Assembly (NCBI RefSeq): GCF_009758175.1
Contig: NZ_WRPM01000103.1
Coordinates: forward strand, 1 to 64,000
Direction: 5' to 3'
From: Nesterenkonia alkaliphila
Lineage (GTDB): Bacteria > Actinomycetota > Actinomycetes > Actinomycetales > Micrococcaceae
DNA length: 64,000 bases
The notes below the pieces were generated by a model. The model made no database searches and was not told the DNA's origin. It saw only the letters and a list, made by a program, of their open reading frames with translations. The translations under genes and the position numbers were made by a program. Within the stretch, counting starts at the first letter, position 1. Each line of letters starts with the position of its first letter. Below, one piece after another: positions 57,999-64,000 of the stretch.

Positions 57999-58709
57999 AT
58001 GGCTGAGAAGACCCCGCACCAGAACATCACCTTCCCGCTGCCCGAGGCCGATGTCACCGACACCGGTCACGGTTATCTGGCCACCCCGCCCTCAGGCTCC
58101 GGACCGGCCGTGATCGTCATCCAGGAGTGGTGGGGCCTGACTGACCACATCAAGGAGGTGACCGACCGCCTGGCTGCTGCAGGGTTTGTGGCCCTGGCCC
58201 CGGACCTCTACGGCGGTTGGATCACCCACGACGGAGACGAGGCCGGCGAGATGATGTCCAAGCTCCCGGCCGAGGAGGGCGCACGGCAGCTGGCCGGGGC
58301 GGCAGACTTCCTGCTCGCCCACGAGGATGTCACCTCCTCCACAGTGGGTGCCATCGGCTTCTGCATGGGCGGGGGGTTCGTCCTGGCCCTGGCCGCCCAG
58401 CAGGGGGAGAAGATCTCCGCAGCTGTGCCCTTCTACGGGGTGGGCCAGGCGGTGCCGGAGACCTACACCGGGGTCAGAGCAGCCGTGCAGGGCCACTACG
58501 CCACCCAGGACCAGATGTACCCGGAGGACCAGGCCCGGGCGCAGGAGGCCCAGATCCGTGAGGAGTCCGGGGCCGAGGTCGAGTTCTTCTACTACGAGGC
58601 CGGCCACGCCTTCCACAACGATGAGAACCTCATCGGCACCTACGACCCCGAGAAGGCCGCCCTGGCTTGGGAACGCAGCCTCGACTTTCTGCGCAAGAAG
58701 GTGGTGTGA
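57999..58709 (+). CDS. Dienelactone hydrolase family protein
   Basis: This 236-residue alpha/beta hydrolase has the dienelactone hydrolase nucleophile motif GFCMGGG with a catalytic cysteine, the opening VIVIQEWWGLTDHIKEV and the catalytic histidine in AGHAFHNDEN. The family hydrolyses dienelactones or related esters in the cytoplasm; the real substrate is uncertain. The ATG has AAGGAGG upstream. Its stop overlaps the start of the LysR-type effector domain gene. Confidence 0.92.
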   Translation: MAEKTPHQNITFPLPEADVTDTGHGYLATPPSGSGPAVIVIQEWWGLTDHIKEVTDRLAAAGFVALAPDLYGGWITHDGDEAGEMMSKLPAEEGARQLAGAADFLLAHEDVTSSTVGAIGFCMGGGFVLALAAQQGEKISAAVPFYGVGQAVPETYTGVRAAVQGHYATQDQMYPEDQARAQEAQIREESGAEVEFFYYEAGHAFHNDENLIGTYDPEKAALAWERSLDFLRKKVV

Positions 58710-59503
58710 GCTTCCCGGGGCAGCTCACCCTCGGTGCGATCCCCGGGGCTGCACCGGATAAGTGGGTGCGGCGTTGGCGTGAGCGGTTTCCGGCGATCTC
58801 GCTCCGGGTGGTCTATTACGACGACGCCGGGGCACCTGAGCGCCTCATCGCGGGCACCGTAGACATCAGCTACCACCGCAGCAGGGAGGGCCTGCAGCTG
58901 CCTGAGGAGGGACTCTTCCACCGGGTCCGGCTCTATACCGAGCAGGCCGTGGTCTGCGCGGCGCGGGATCACTGTGTGGCCGCCGCGGAGGACTCGGTGG
59001 ACGTCGCCGAGCTCTTCGATGAGCCGTTCTTGGACCCTCGCGGGATGGTCAGCGAGCCCGCGGACCCGCACCGACCGCTTGCCGGGGAGGAGCTGGCACG
59101 TGCTGAGCGCATCGCCCTGGAGGTGGTGGCATCCGGGGCGGGCCTGCTGGTGATGCCGCATTCGGTGGCCAGGTCGCTGAGTCGCAAGGACGTCGTCACG
59201 CGGGTCCTGGACCAGGCGCCCGGCTATGACGTCTCGCTTCTCTGGCTGCGGGAACGGGACTCCGAGCAGATCCAGGAGTTTATCGGCGTCGCCCGGGGGC
59301 GCCGCGCCCAGTCTCCGAGGTCGGCGGTGTCCAGTGCAGATATTCAGCACAGCGCAGATGTACAGCACAGCGCAGACGCGCGGCGGAAGGAGCCTGCACG
59401 CCGGCCCCAGGCCAGAGGCGGTGCGCGAGGCGGCCAGCGGCAGGGCGGAGCTACTCGGAGGCGTCCTCGGGGTGGCGGGCGAGGTGGATCAGGGCGGCGA
59501 TGA
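58706..59503 (+). CDS. LysR-type substrate-binding domain protein lacking HTH
   Basis: This 265-residue protein starts directly with the first strand of a LysR effector domain (FPGQLTLGAIPGAAPDKWVRR), continues with VDISYHRSREGLQLPEEGLF and GAGLLVMPHSVARSL, and has no DNA-binding helix-turn-helix. The GTG overlaps the hydrolase stop (GTGA), so no N-terminal domain has been missed. The C-terminal 60 residues are Gly/Arg-rich and strongly basic (RGGARGGQRQGG), probably disordered, and may bind nucleic acid. Its 3' end overlaps metS on the opposite strand by 53 bases. It may be a ligand sensor rather than a classical regulator. Confidence 0.8.
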   Translation: MSFPGQLTLGAIPGAAPDKWVRRWRERFPAISLRVVYYDDAGAPERLIAGTVDISYHRSREGLQLPEEGLFHRVRLYTEQAVVCAARDHCVAAAEDSVDVAELFDEPFLDPRGMVSEPADPHRPLAGEELARAERIALEVVASGAGLLVMPHSVARSLSRKDVVTRVLDQAPGYDVSLLWLRERDSEQIQEFIGVARGRRAQSPRSAVSSADIQHSADVQHSADARRKEPARRPQARGGARGGQRQGGATRRRPRGGGRGGSGRR

Positions 59504-59561
59504 GCCCGCCCCAGACGGTCACCAGCGCAACGATCATCATCACCACGGCAGCTGCGTCCAT
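59451..59561 (-). CDS. metS: NSS transporter small subunit MetS
   Basis: Translation of the minus strand from the ATG at 59561 gives 36 residues, MDAAAVVMMIVALVTVWGG then LIAALIHLARHPEDASE. This is the one-helix small subunit known from MetP/MetS of Corynebacterium, needed for methionine/alanine import. Its ATG overlaps the metP stop (TGATG). The 3' end runs into the LysR-type gene on the other strand. Confidence 0.88.
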   Translation of the reverse strand: MDAAAVVMMIVALVTVWGGLIAALIHLARHPEDASE

Positions 59562-61132
59562 CAGACTGTCTCCTTTCCGGCTTCGTCACGGTCCGGGTCT
59601 TCCATATGCATCGCGGAGCTCTCTGACCAGGGCATGAGGCTCAGCCCCACCGAGACCACGATCATCAGCGCCAGGGAGCCCCAGCCGAAGGTGGCCAGCA
59701 CCCACGTGTCGAATCCGCCGTAGCCCTCGAGGATCTTGTCGCGGATGTCCAGCACCAGCAGCACCCCGAGCACCAGTGGGAGAACCACCCCGATCAGGGT
59801 CTTCCACACCGGGCCCAAGGTGAGGGAGCCGTAGGCGTTGAGCGCGGCCCGCAGCACGTCCAGCTTCCGGTAGACCCAGGTGGCCAGCACTACCGAGGCG
59901 AAGGCGCCGAGCACGATGCCGACATTATTGGAGAATGCGTCGACCACATCCAGGATGGTCACTCCAGAGACTCCGCCGATGAGCACCACGGAGATCAGCG
60001 CTGCGGGCAGGCCGGCGGCGGCTACCGAGACCGGGCGGGACCAACCCGTCTTGTCCTTCACCGCGGAGACGACCACCTCCAGGATGGAGATCAGCGAGGT
60101 GATCCCGGCCAGGGTCAGCGAGCCGAAGAAGAGCACTCCGAGCAGCGCGGAGGCCGGCGCCTCGGAAATGATGGTGGGGAAGGCGACGAAGGCTAGGCCC
60201 AGCCCGGAGCTGGCCACCTCGTCCACGGCGGTGCCGGCCGCCACGGCCAGGAACCCCAGGGCGGAGAAGACTCCGATGGCCGCCAGCACCTCGAAGGAGG
60301 AGTTGGCGAAGCCGACCACCAGGCCGGAGCCGGTGGCATTGGACTTCCTGCGCAGGTACGAGGCATAGGTGATCATGATGCCGAAGCCCACTGAGAGGCT
60401 GAAGAAGATCTGCCCGTAGGCCTGGATCCATACGGTGGCATCGGTCAAAGCTCCCCAGTCCGGGGTGAAGAGCGCGTTGAGGCCGGTGGTGGCTCCCTCA
60501 AGGGTTAGCGAGTATCCGACCAGGACGGCGAACATGAGGAAGAGCACAGGCATCCCGATCAGCGAGATCGCGGTCAGGCCCTTGCGCACCCCGGTGGCCA
60601 GGGCAGCCAGGAGCAGCACCCACACCACGATCAGCGGCCAGCCCACTTGTGCGACGAAGTCCACGGAGATTCCCGCGCCCTCGGCACCGCCGCCGTCGTA
60701 CTGCAGGAACTCGGCGAAGAAGAAGCCCTCCGCGTCCTCACCCCAGGCCTGGGTCAGCGAGAACCAGGTGTACATCGCCGCCCAGGCGACGATCGCGGCA
60801 TAGTAGATGGCGATCAGGAAGCAGATGCCCACCTGGAACCAGCCCACCGCCTCAGCGCTGGGGTGCATGCGTTTGAAGGCCAGCGGCGGGGAGCCGCGGA
60901 ACTTATAGCCCATTGCGTAGTCGAAGAGCAGGATAGGCAGACCAGCGGTCAGCAGTGCAATCAGGTACGGGATCAGGAAGGCGCCGCCGCCGTTCTCGTA
61001 GGTGACGTACGGGAAGCGCCAGATATTGCCCAGCCCTACGGCAGAGCCGATGGCCACAAGGATGAATGCTGTGCGGCCGGAGAAGCTTTCACGGATGCGG
61101 AAACCGGAGCGGTTTCCTGCGGTGTCAGTCAT
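59561..61132 (-). CDS. metP: NSS-family sodium:amino-acid symporter MetP
   Basis: This 523-residue transporter has the neurotransmitter:sodium symporter fold with about 12 helices. The Na+-site helix reads AIGSAVGLGNIWRFPYVTYE, followed by NGGGAFLIPYL. With the small subunit MetS it imports methionine or alanine using Na+. The gene has its own promoter region with a GACGG/CCGTC dyad. Sodium coupling fits the Mrp antiporter elsewhere in the window. Confidence 0.93.
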   Translation of the reverse strand: MTDTAGNRSGFRIRESFSGRTAFILVAIGSAVGLGNIWRFPYVTYENGGGAFLIPYLIALLTAGLPILLFDYAMGYKFRGSPPLAFKRMHPSAEAVGWFQVGICFLIAIYYAAIVAWAAMYTWFSLTQAWGEDAEGFFFAEFLQYDGGGAEGAGISVDFVAQVGWPLIVVWVLLLAALATGVRKGLTAISLIGMPVLFLMFAVLVGYSLTLEGATTGLNALFTPDWGALTDATVWIQAYGQIFFSLSVGFGIMITYASYLRRKSNATGSGLVVGFANSSFEVLAAIGVFSALGFLAVAAGTAVDEVASSGLGLAFVAFPTIISEAPASALLGVLFFGSLTLAGITSLISILEVVVSAVKDKTGWSRPVSVAAAGLPAALISVVLIGGVSGVTILDVVDAFSNNVGIVLGAFASVVLATWVYRKLDVLRAALNAYGSLTLGPVWKTLIGVVLPLVLGVLLVLDIRDKILEGYGGFDTWVLATFGWGSLALMIVVSVGLSLMPWSESSAMHMEDPDRDEAGKETV

Positions 61133-61239: not shown

Positions 61240-61953
61240 CTAGTCCGGCAGCAGCTGGCGCAGGCGGCTTGCCGCCTCCCGGACATCCGCTGCCTGGGTG
61301 ACGGCCCGCACCACCACGGCCCGCTGCGCTCCGGCCCCGGCGACCTCGGCAATGTTCTCTGGGTTGATCCCGCCGATGGCGAAGAACGGCTTGGCCGAGT
61401 CGAGTCCCGAGGCCTGGGCCACCAGCTCGGTGCCCACCGCCGCCCGGCCCGGCTTGGTGGGGGTCTCCCACACCGGACCGGTGCAGTAGTAGTCGATCCC
61501 GGCGTCCGCGGCGGCCTCACGCACCTGCTCAAAGGTTCGGCAGGAGCGGCCGATCACCACGTCATCGCCCAGGATGGCCCGGGCCTGAGCAGTGGAGAGG
61601 TCCTCCTGACCCACGTGGAACACATCCACCCCGGTGATCCGGGCAAGGTCGGCCCGGTCGTTGGCGGCAGAGAGCCCGCCGTACTCATCGGCCACCTCCT
61701 TGAGCAGGGTCAGCGCGGCGATCTCGGTCTGCGCTGAGACGTTCTTATCGCGCACCTGAATGATGTCTGCACCGCCGGCGTAGGCCTCAGCGTAGAACGT
61801 TCGCAGCGCCTCGAAGCCCAGCTCCTCCACCGGGCCGGCCTCGGGGTAGGCGATGAACCGCTGCAGGTCAGTGCAGACGTAGAGCCGGGAGGCCAGCAGC
61901 CGTTCGCGTCGAAGCTGGCCGAGGTGGGTGGGGTCCGGTGTGGCAACAGTCAT
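61240..61953 (-). CDS. thiE: Thiamine-phosphate synthase ThiE
   Basis: This 237-residue enzyme joins the thiazole phosphate and HMP pyrophosphate to make thiamine phosphate. The family motifs are present: ADIIQVRDKN, SAANDRADLA, DVFHVGQEDL, the pyrophosphate loop YYCTGPVWETPTKPG and FFAIGGINPEN. I chose the ATG at 61953; the upstream extension has no homology. No TPP riboswitch is visible. It follows the FMN oxidase-like gene by 20 bases and may be cotranscribed with it. Confidence 0.95.
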   Translation of the reverse strand: MTVATPDPTHLGQLRRERLLASRLYVCTDLQRFIAYPEAGPVEELGFEALRTFYAEAYAGGADIIQVRDKNVSAQTEIAALTLLKEVADEYGGLSAANDRADLARITGVDVFHVGQEDLSTAQARAILGDDVVIGRSCRTFEQVREAAADAGIDYYCTGPVWETPTKPGRAAVGTELVAQASGLDSAKPFFAIGGINPENIAEVAGAGAQRAVVVRAVTQAADVREAASRLRQLLPD

Positions 61954-61973: not shown

Positions 61974-63077
61974 TCAGGGCCGGCAGTAGAGCACCTCGGA
62001 GCTGAGCTCCTCCACCGAGGAGCATCCGAGGTGCCCCAGAGTCGTCCAGAGCTCATCCCGCAGCAGCTCGACGGTGCGGACCACACCCTCCTCTCCGGCT
62101 GCGGCCAGTCCGAGTGCGATCAGCCGGCCGGCGGCCACCGCATCGGCTCCCAGGGCCAGCGCAGCTGCGATGTCGCTGCCGCGCCGGATCCCGGAGTCCA
62201 GCACGATGGGCACCTCGGGTCCCGCCGCGGCGCGCACTTCAGGCAGCACCTCAATGCTGGCCGGAGTGCGGTCCACAGTGCGCCCACCGTAGTTGGAGAC
62301 GTAGAGGGAGTCTGCTCCGGCCGCCAGAGCGGCCTCAGCATCGCGAGGACTCTGGACCCCTTTGACCATGACGGGCAGATCGCACTCCCGGATGAAGGAC
62401 TGCACCTGCTGCCAGCTCCAGCGTGGGGCGGTGAAGCTCACCAGTTCCTCGAGGGTGGCCCGCTGTGCGGCTGTACCGCCTTCGCTGAAGTTCCTCTGCA
62501 TCGAGACCCTTGGGACGAAGGCATCCTCCATCAGCCGTTCCCGCCACTGCCGGAGGGGGGAGTAGGTGGCCACAATCCGCTCATATCCGGCTTGACGGGC
62601 CCGGTCTGCCAGCTCCACACAGGCGCTGACCTCCCCGACCAGCGTCATCTGGAAGAGCTTGGGGCACTGGGAGGAGGCAGCCACCTCCTCCAATGTGAAG
62701 GAGGAGGCCACCGGCACCATCTGCATGATGCCCGTACGCTGCGCAGCCCGCCCCGCCGCCAGGTGCCCCTCCGGGTGGAACTCGGCGTCCCCTCCGAAGG
62801 GTGCCACCAGCAGGGGCAGGCTCAGCTCGTGTCCGAACAGACGGCTTCCGGTGTTCGGGCTGCTGACCCCGGCGAAGAGGGGGGTGTTCCAGAGAATCTC
62901 GTCAAAGGCACGCGTATTTCGGGCCAATGTGGTCTCGTCGCCGGTGCCGGAGTGCAAGAAGTTCCACTGCTCGGCGCTCAGGCGGCACTGAGCCTCCTGC
63001 CGGATCCCCCGGAGTGTGCGGAACCGCTCGGCAGAGCCGAAACGCTCATCAATGATTGAAGAGGTGTTGGCCGTCAT
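61974..63077 (-). CDS. FMN alpha-hydroxyacid-oxidase-like protein with altered active site
   Basis: This 367-residue TIM-barrel protein belongs to the FMN-dependent alpha-hydroxyacid dehydrogenase family (glycolate/lactate oxidase). FMN-site features remain: Lys239 in LPVMVKGV, the phosphate region IVLDSGIRRGSD and Arg266. The catalytic His of the SNHGGR motif is replaced by Tyr263 (SNYGGR). The N-terminal active-site tyrosine is Phe40 (EQWNFLHSG), and the YVYKDR-type tyrosine segment reads LFQMTLVGE. It probably does not oxidise hydroxyacids by the usual mechanism. It is 14 bases from the isochorismatase-like gene upstream. Confidence 0.82.
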   Translation of the reverse strand: MTANTSSIIDERFGSAERFRTLRGIRQEAQCRLSAEQWNFLHSGTGDETTLARNTRAFDEILWNTPLFAGVSSPNTGSRLFGHELSLPLLVAPFGGDAEFHPEGHLAAGRAAQRTGIMQMVPVASSFTLEEVAASSQCPKLFQMTLVGEVSACVELADRARQAGYERIVATYSPLRQWRERLMEDAFVPRVSMQRNFSEGGTAAQRATLEELVSFTAPRWSWQQVQSFIRECDLPVMVKGVQSPRDAEAALAAGADSLYVSNYGGRTVDRTPASIEVLPEVRAAAGPEVPIVLDSGIRRGSDIAAALALGADAVAAGRLIALGLAAAGEEGVVRTVELLRDELWTTLGHLGCSSVEELSSEVLYCRP

Positions 63078-63091
63078 ATCGGACTTCCGGC

Positions 63092-63673
63092 TCAGGCGGA
63101 GGCGCTGAGCGCCTCGAAGACCTCAGCCATCGGCCGGACCCGCCCCAGGTACGGGAAGACCTCATTGACGGAGTACTCGTGGTTGGCGGCTTTGGCGGTG
63201 GCCATGATCCCCTCGACGAAGACCACGTTGTACCCCAAGTCGTAGGCCGAGCGGCCGGTGCCCTCGACTCCAAGGTTGGTGGAGATTCCTGCCAGGAGAA
63301 TGGTGTCGATGCCGTGCGAGCGCAGCTGATGGTCAAGGTCGGAGCCGTGGAAGGCGTTGAAGGTGCGTTTGACGACCACCGGTTCGTTCTGTGTTCTGGC
63401 CATGGTCTCCACCAGCTGGTCCCACCGTTCGGGACGAGGCTTCTTGGGCTTCTGGAAGTCCCGCAGCGGGTTGGGGGCGTCCTGCTCGTTCGGCAGGAAA
63501 CTGGTGCGCACAAAGATGTTCAGCGCTCCGGCCTCCCGGACGCTTTGGGCCAGCTCGGCGGCCCGGGAGAAGACGGTGGGGGCGTCCACCGGCTCCGCAG
63601 GATGACTGAGGACTGCCTCCTGCATATCGATGAAGACTGCAGCGGTGGTCCGGGGGTCAATAGAGAGGGTCAA
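63092..63673 (-). CDS. Isochorismatase-like hydrolase lacking the catalytic cysteine
   Basis: This 193-residue protein has the cysteine-hydrolase/isochorismatase fold. Asp16 (AAVFIDMQ) and Lys102 (PVVVKRTFNAF) of the usual Asp-Lys-Cys triad are present, but the cysteine position in LLAGISTNLGVEGT is Gly135. Gly at this position is known from true isochorismatases such as EntB and PhzD, which hydrolyse a vinyl ether without a thiol. A vinyl-ether-type or non-covalent reaction is therefore more likely than amidase activity. It is the gene before the FMN oxidase-like gene in an apparent operon. Confidence 0.85.
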   Translation of the reverse strand: MTLSIDPRTTAAVFIDMQEAVLSHPAEPVDAPTVFSRAAELAQSVREAGALNIFVRTSFLPNEQDAPNPLRDFQKPKKPRPERWDQLVETMARTQNEPVVVKRTFNAFHGSDLDHQLRSHGIDTILLAGISTNLGVEGTGRSAYDLGYNVVFVEGIMATAKAANHEYSVNEVFPYLGRVRPMAEVFEALSASA

Positions 63674-63735: not shown

Positions 63736-64000
63736 TCAGGCGGCCGGCTGCGGCTTGAGGTGTTCCAGCTCAGCGGGGGTGTCCCCGTGAATATCGCGGG
63801 CGAGGAGCTCACCGAGCAGGGGAGCCATGGTGAGACCGGCGGCTCCGTATCCTGTGGCGACCCAGACGGCGTCGTGACCCGGCAGGCGCCCCACCAGCGG
63901 GAGCAGGCCCTCGGGCAGCGGGCGCAGCCCCACGCGGGTCTCCAGGAGGGTCGCTTCGGCCAGGCCCGGCACAATGCCGAGGGCATCCTGGAGCACCTGG
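63736..64000 (-). CDS. FAD-dependent amine oxidase (DAO/ThiO family), C-terminal part
   Basis: This is the C-terminal 88 or so residues of a DAO-family flavoprotein; the gene starts beyond the window end. Landmarks are TRVGLRPLPEGLLPLVGR and HDAVWVATGYGAAGLTMAPL, the final FAD-binding strand and helix of glycine oxidase, sarcosine oxidase and D-amino-acid oxidase. The nearby thiE allows ThiO (glycine oxidase for thiazole synthesis) but does not prove it. The stop is 62 bases before the isochorismatase-like gene, so they may share an operon. Confidence 0.8.
   Translation of the reverse strand, partial: QVLQDALGIVPGLAEATLLETRVGLRPLPEGLLPLVGRLPGHDAVWVATGYGAAGLTMAPLLGELLARDIHGDTPAELEHLKPQPAA

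Follow-up and report, generated by a model that had tools for sequence, protein, structure and literature searches.

A clade of FMN_dh-family proteins with tyrosine in place of the catalytic histidine and its possible role in a cassette for N-carboxymethyl amino acids

Two adjacent genes of Nesterenkonia alkaliphila, one for a protein resembling FMN-dependent hydroxy-acid oxidases and one for an isochorismatase-like protein, raise the question of what such neighbours may do when residues at both active sites differ from those of their families. The genes are located close to the end of the window, i.e. the whole stretch of 64,000 nucleotides that was analysed here (contig NZ_WRPM01000103.1, positions 1 to 64,000). 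In the first-pass annotation the pair had been read as an uncharacterised two-step pathway rather than as decayed genes. Profile searches, alignments, a tree, predicted models and comparisons of orthologous loci were used for the analysis of both proteins and their surroundings. The features concerned are the following:

61240-61953, minus strand: thiE (thiamine phosphate synthase), downstream flank, whose conservation in the genus is independent of the cassette described below
61974-63077, minus strand: FMN_dh-family protein of the SNYGGR clade, 367 aa, ATG start (Pfam profile, alignment, tree)
63092-63673, minus strand: YecD-type isochorismatase-fold protein, 193 aa, TTG start (Pfam, alignment)
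63736-64000, minus strand, continuing to 64833 outside the window (L047 5737-6834): DAO1, a DAO-family flavoenzyme of 365 aa whose C-terminal part lies in the window (sequence search)

Active sites of the two neighbours and the clade of Tyr-type FMN proteins

The reading frames of the FMN_dh gene and the isochorismatase-fold gene, which are separated by 14 bp, are both intact (367 aa and 193 aa), as had been stated before. The protein encoded at 61974-63077 is a member of the Pfam FMN_dh family (312.7 bits at a cut-off of 24.9), and the top Foldseek match of its predicted model was 1gox (E 8.7e-29). For site equivalences we assumed the residue numbering of glycolate oxidase (GO; Tyr24, Tyr129, Asp157, His254 etc.). 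The alignment confirmed the earlier reading of the site: Tyr263 occupies the column of the catalytic GO His254 and Phe40 that of GO Tyr24, Thr145 stands at GO Tyr129 in a replaced YVYKDR stretch that reads TLVGEV, and GO Lys230 and GO Arg257 are retained as Lys239 and Arg266. GO Asp157, the partner of the catalytic His, is also gone, a loss not listed in the first-pass annotation, since the TVDTP-type segment reads TYSP, and Arg179 and Asp294, the Asp equivalent to GO Asp285, are retained.

No NCBIfam equivalog cut-off was reached by the FMN protein of the window. Its identity as MftD (TIGR03966, 197 bits at a cut-off of 470.85) or L-lactate oxidase (TIGR02708, 179.2 bits at a cut-off of 645.5) was dropped, as both scores remained below the curated cut-offs. 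A true MftD (691.6 bits) is also encoded in the genome of the window (C12:5797-6936); in this protein GO Arg257 is replaced by Asn and GO Tyr24 by Ala, whereas His and Asp are kept. The predicted model of the FMN protein had a mean pLDDT of 77.6, with residues 174-218 and 264-270 below pLDDT 50. Active-site geometry from this model was set aside because of these loops, so that it lends no support to a catalytic role of Tyr263.

In total, 17 alphaproteobacterial orthologues, 56-62% identical to the window FMN protein, were collected. Eight relatives within this identity range came from a contig scan (seven Microvirga and one Chelativorans), two more from a plasmid search (Rhizobium sp. SSA_523 and Salipiger abyssi) and seven from relatives of Microvirga and Chelativorans. 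A comparison table was built from ORFs that were 250 aa or longer and matched at E<=1e-15, after removal of identical copies; it contained 44 other FMN_dh proteins, namely the best search matches together with E. coli LldD, and is thus a sample of the family. Tyr at GO His254 and the loss of GO Asp157 were found in 18/18 clade members (the window protein and its 17 orthologues), whereas His and Asp are both present in 44/44 of the other proteins. Likewise, Thr at GO Tyr129 occurs in all 18 clade members versus 0/44 others. GO Lys230, Arg164, Arg257 and Asp285 are retained throughout the clade (18/18). Three best-match loci outside the ORF filter (L015, L026, L028) were read separately, and all have His. 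One Microvirga copy (L086, genome G1139) is broken by a TGA inside the match; it stops short of the catalytic site and was left out of the counts.

GO Tyr24 is kept in 17/18 clade members and replaced by Phe in the window protein alone. Phe40, which had been listed among the replaced catalytic residues, was rejected as a diagnostic change: 13/15 of the nearest His-bearing proteins have Phe at this position, as does long-chain hydroxyacid oxidase according to the available text of PMC10153336. These nearest His-bearing proteins, actinobacterial homologues at 36-42% identity (L048-L059, L045, L046), carry His at GO Tyr129 in 14/15 in addition to the Phe at GO Tyr24, and they represent another uncharacterised pocket variant.

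In the tree, the 18 clade proteins form a single group (support 100/100) whose stem is long, at 0.99 changes per column, and the window protein branches outside the other 17 members (support 93/96). Among many pocket and loop positions, Val123, Thr145, Arg176-Gln177, Tyr259, Thr267 and His349 are invariant within the clade and different outside it. The dN/dS values lay between 0.045 and 0.111 in 6/6 orthologue pairs computed. Since the residue changes are fixed in 18/18 members and dN/dS is low, decay or strain-specific loss was ruled out, and the FMN proteins with Tyr are, as judged from their sequences, a specialised enzyme family. The earlier view that the FMN protein is diverged and not decayed was therefore upheld: Tyr, Thr and the missing Asp recur in 17/17 orthologues, and a canonical His in the same context was found in none of the 17.

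The clade is rare and patchy. Its FMN gene was found in 1/30 genomes of the window's genus, and no second member was detected in 149 genomes sampled from the window's family; the best full-length match besides it there reaches 34% identity. Ten other genomes among 394 sampled from the class gave strong matches to proteins of 39-42% identity, and those read have His. In Microvirga, the gene is present in 10/48 genomes, with one copy broken, and a scan of 199 sampled genomes of the Chelativorans family yielded it in six. An even draw from the class of the latter family returned 1/385, the centre genome itself; a second match (G666) has His.

The protein encoded at 63092-63673 was recognised by Pfam Isochorismatase (120.5 bits), and its best solved relative is E. 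coli YecD (PDB 1j2r, E 1.4e-38). With 160.8 bits it remains below the PRK11440 cut-off of 195 in NCBIfam, so that it is YecD-like and not a certified equivalog. Its triad is Asp16-Lys102-Gly135; Gly135 takes the place of the catalytic Cys of the cysteine hydrolases of the isochorismatase superfamily, as had been claimed, and stands at the column of the RutB Cys. Asp-Lys-Gly triads are given for YecD (Asp25-Lys112-Gly145) and for EntB, a genuine isochorismatase (Asp37-Lys123-Gly156), in the available part of PMC12553813, and they are also visible in the alignment with the window protein. Among ten aligned Microvirga homologues, the four closest have Gly and six more distant ones have Cys. The interpretation of Gly135 as a surprising loss was rejected, as Gly is found in YecD, EntB and these four homologues; by alignment, it is the normal subgroup state of the YecD/EntB type and not a catalytic loss. 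Of the replacements previously reported in both neighbours, those at the His and Tyr129 positions of the FMN protein stand, whereas Phe40 and Gly135 are real but ordinary. YecD-type proteins were found at E<=1e-25 in 1/80 genomes, which are a sample of a larger group.

The conserved cassette and its insertion beside thiE

Genes for a family-5 binding protein (SBP) of the dipeptide/opine class and for a DAO-family flavoenzyme accompany the FMN gene in 17/17 orthologous loci. A RidA gene is likewise present in all 17 by tblastn, two of which had been missed by the ORF screen, and a divergent LysR gene was found in 16 loci, the Salipiger record being annotated with a LysR gene at the edge of the stretch. 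The gene order LysR, binding protein, DAO, RidA, FMN is kept in 16 of the 17 loci. In Salipiger, RidA and FMN are separated by four ABC genes, and a second DAO gene follows. The DAO partners of the 17 loci are 58-69% identical to PDB 6pxs, the title of which reads iminodiacetate oxidase IdaA from Chelativorans sp. BNC1; the predicted DAO model was poor (mean pLDDT 64.1), and its structure search was used only to read this title.

The YecD gene was detected by tblastn in 0/17 orthologous FMN loci; in the window it occupies the slot held by RidA in the orthologous cassettes. Because of this absence, the pairing of FMN and isochorismatase-like proteins is not the unit, and the proposal of a pathway formed by the two was not supported, the two genes having been seen together in the window genome alone. 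What is conserved is a larger cassette (IdaA-type DAO, RidA and binding protein), and these partners lie mostly outside 61974-63673. Paracoccus aminophilus (pAMI4) has LysR, SBP, DAO and RidA genes without the FMN gene, and a Stf0 sulfotransferase gene occupies the FMN slot. The FMN enzyme is therefore not needed by the DAO-RidA core, and the FMN step is optional. IdaA-like DAOs without nearby FMN, RidA and YecD genes were found in three more records, from Bacillus and Paenibacillus, where the surrounding stretches were checked by ORF comparison only, and from Nonomuraea, whose stand-alone DAO is 62% identical to DAO1 of the window.

DAO1 is 46% identical to IdaA (6pxs) and 45% identical to a Microvirga copy. 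IdaA is its closest solved DAO, with 297.7 bits compared to 107.7 bits for the next solved chain. The order in the window lineage is DAO1 (from 64833), YecD and FMN gene, and upstream of these the cassette contains an IclR regulator, a family-5 binding protein, a second DAO, a four-gene ABC transporter set and a third DAO. The second DAO is 41% identical to that of Salipiger. The third DAO (72529-73695, outside the window; L047 14530-15696) is close to N-methyl-L-tryptophan oxidase (241.2 of 257 bits) and lies 15 bp from the flanking PfpI gene. The binding protein differs from the alphaproteobacterial one (only 23% identical), and a cassette-type RidA was not found in the window cassette. The window genome has three RidA-family genes, all on other contigs, and none of them gave a significant match to the cassette RidA (E 0.14 or worse). 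Given the different binding protein and the absence of a cassette-type RidA, the substrate may differ between the lineages.

In this genome, the genes form an inserted cassette beside thiE. The cassette spans 61974-73695 (11.7 kb) and is flanked by thiE, 20 bp downstream of the FMN gene, and by a DJ-1/PfpI gene. In 6/6 congeners examined, the thiE neighbourhood is conserved and the cassette genes are absent there, so that thiE is a flank and not a part of the cassette. In two of these congeners, thiE and the DJ-1/PfpI gene, i.e. the two flanks of the window cassette, are adjacent at a distance of about 10 bp; of the other four, two have another gene between thiE and PfpI and two have no PfpI gene in the stretch. 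The GC content over the cassette shows no clear step (60-68% per kb), and direct or inverted repeats of at least 10 bases were not found between the 300-base stretches at the two cassette ends.

Two further genes were noted on the other side of thiE. A transporter of the sodium:neurotransmitter symporter family (59561-61132, minus strand) lies between thiE and a LysR-like gene; in 6/6 congeners it was missing from the surroundings of thiE, and it may represent a further insertion with a possible link to the cassette. For the LysR-like gene (58667-59503, plus strand), Pfam shows the LysR substrate-binding domain only and no helix-turn-helix. The same holds for 2/2 congener copies scanned, which makes it a conserved effector-domain-only protein.

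Possible chemistry and competing readings

Our preferred reading, to which we assign a probability of roughly 40%, is that the FMN protein represents an uncharacterised conserved FMN_dh clade in which the His-Asp base was exchanged for Tyr, and that it acts in an uptake and oxidation cassette for N-carboxymethyl (iminodiacetate- or opine-like) amino acids. The ABC importer would bring in an amino compound, and the IdaA-type FAD enzyme would oxidise the C-N bond of an N-carboxymethyl amino acid to an imine. Glyoxylate and an amino acid would be released when this imine is hydrolysed by RidA, or in the window lineage perhaps by the YecD-type hydrolase; imine or enamine hydrolysis by the latter would be a reasonable guess, since EntB-type enzymes hydrolyse a vinyl ether without Cys. 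The Tyr-type enzyme, presumed to bind FMN, would then oxidise a second amine through the hydride-transfer chemistry of D-amino acid oxidase; most simply this amine would be the released glycine or amino acid, glycine being the least sure part of the scheme.

With the base pair lost and the carboxylate-binding arginines and the flavin lysine kept, the protein appears ill-suited to hydroxy acids and could oxidise a carboxylated amine. It thus probably oxidises amines rather than hydroxy acids. This agrees with a cassette in which the other oxidase is IdaA-like and the third enzyme is an imine deaminase. MftD, which we take to be an amine-oxidising member of the FMN_dh fold, keeps His and Asp, so that amine oxidation does not require their loss. 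In the available text of PMC10153336, the family His is described as the proton-abstracting base in a carbanion mechanism, and hydride transfer is given for D-amino acid oxidase. In a screen of EC 1.1.3.15 proteins, all seven conserved residues were kept in 12/14 active proteins, and 8/10 inactive ones were without at least one of them, as reported in the accessible part of PMC8491902.

A redox-neutral FMN enzyme is an unlikely alternative. Acid/base chemistry by Tyr263 together with Lys239 would then racemise, epimerise or isomerise a compound so as to supply the DAO with the isomer it needs, as the racemase DadX does for DadA. Type 2 IPP isomerase is a related FMN barrel with redox-neutral chemistry, to which the FMN protein has a weak profile match (39.9 bits), and many pocket positions of the clade were rebuilt together. 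The C-terminal FMN_dh architecture and the flavin-binding residues are unchanged, however, and iminodiacetate itself has no stereocentre. A precedent for joining a racemase, a DAO and a Rid protein is the dad locus (excerpted text of PMC9714295).

Going beyond the preferred reading, it may be proposed that a glycolate-oxidase scaffold was turned into an FMN amino-acid oxidase by deletion of the His-Asp base and installation of Tyr. Such an enzyme would converge on the base-free hydride chemistry of D-amino acid oxidase and supply the second oxidation in a cassette for iminodiacetate or opines (e.g. glycine to glyoxylate and ammonia). The YecD-type Asp-Lys-Gly hydrolase of the window, Cys-free like isochorismatase, would have displaced RidA as imine or enamine hydrolase. 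We regard this extended proposal as unlikely in its entirety.

It is distinctly unlikely that the FMN protein still oxidises a hydroxy acid or an aldehyde hydrate, e.g. the glyoxylate formed by IdaA, with the help of a different base. Glyoxylate is described as an IdaA product in the available text of PMC7312458, and glycolate oxidase is reported in that of PMC10153336 to oxidise glyoxylate slowly to oxalate. The retention of the carboxylate-binding arginines and the lysine in 18/18 members would suit such a substrate, but neither the His nor the Asp of the catalytic pair is left, and Tyr129 is gone as well. A replacement base could be sought in His349, which occurs in every clade member and in 0/44 other family proteins; it sits in the C-terminal helix of the predicted model (317-349), however, and may not reach the flavin.

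We consider it very unlikely that the protein is catalytically silent and binds a ligand or flavin in a regulatory or scaffolding role. Three conserved catalytic residues of the family are lost, yet the flavin- and carboxylate-binding positions are kept in 18/18 proteins, purifying selection is strong and a full metabolic cassette surrounds the gene. Less probable still is the private two-step pathway of FMN enzyme and isochorismatase-like protein: the two genes are adjacent, 14 bp apart and co-directional, and both are rare (best other full-length FMN match 34% in 149 sampled genomes, YecD type in 1/80 at E<=1e-25), but the isochorismatase gene occurs in 0/17 orthologous cassettes and its Gly is the normal YecD/EntB state. 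A thiamine operon, in which a ThiO-like DAO and ThiE would contribute to thiazole synthesis, was rejected as hardly credible, since DAO1 matches glycine oxidase ThiO with 179.1 bits at a cut-off of 250.8, IdaA is closer to it (298 bits versus at most 108 for other solved chains), and thiE, although only 20 bp downstream of the FMN gene, is present without the cassette in 6/6 congeners.

In open-licence PMC texts, no paper was found that deals with an FMN_dh protein of the Tyr type next to IdaA or RidA, or with such a cassette. If the preferred reading is true, a textbook family of hydroxy-acid flavin oxidases holds a natural clade without its base, and the question of carbanion versus hydride mechanisms becomes testable on a natural variant. 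The annotation of clade proteins as alpha-hydroxy acid oxidase, as carried by the Salipiger member, is probably wrong in substrate. The cassette is a candidate natural route for iminodiacetate- or opine-like compounds and as such relevant to chelator breakdown. Should the role suggested for the YecD-type protein apply, imine or enamine hydrolysis would be the first functional lead for a Cys-less protein of this type.

Comparison with known systems

The window FMN protein shares with the glycolate oxidase family the fold, the Lys, both Arg and the Asp285 equivalent, whereas the catalytic His, its Asp and GO Tyr129 are replaced or lost in 18/18 clade members. The Asp-Lys-Gly triad is common to the YecD-type protein, E. 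coli YecD (1j2r) and the isochorismatase domain of EntB; as differences, the window protein stays below the PRK11440 cut-off and is encoded in a catabolic cassette.

The closest system for the oxidase next to the FMN gene is the IdaA cassette of Chelativorans sp. BNC1, an EDTA-degrading strain, with 58-69% (17 loci) or 46% (window) identity to IdaA. According to the available text of PMC7312458, IdaA converts iminodiacetate to glycine and glyoxylate and ethylenediaminediacetate to ethylenediamine, and the importer of the pathway, EppA, is of the NikA/DppA/OppA-like class, to which the importers of the FMN cassettes also belong. In contrast to the FMN cassettes, neither RidA nor a Tyr-type FMN enzyme is mentioned in the available part of that account.

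The pairing of a DAO-family oxidase with a Rid imine deaminase is shared with the dad locus (DadA-DadX-DadY). For DadA-DadY of Pseudomonas aeruginosa, deamination of the DAO-released imine by the Rid protein is a tested precedent (available text of PMC9714295). The two arrangements differ in that the dad locus contains a racemase, whereas the FMN cassettes contain the FMN enzyme and an ABC binding protein.
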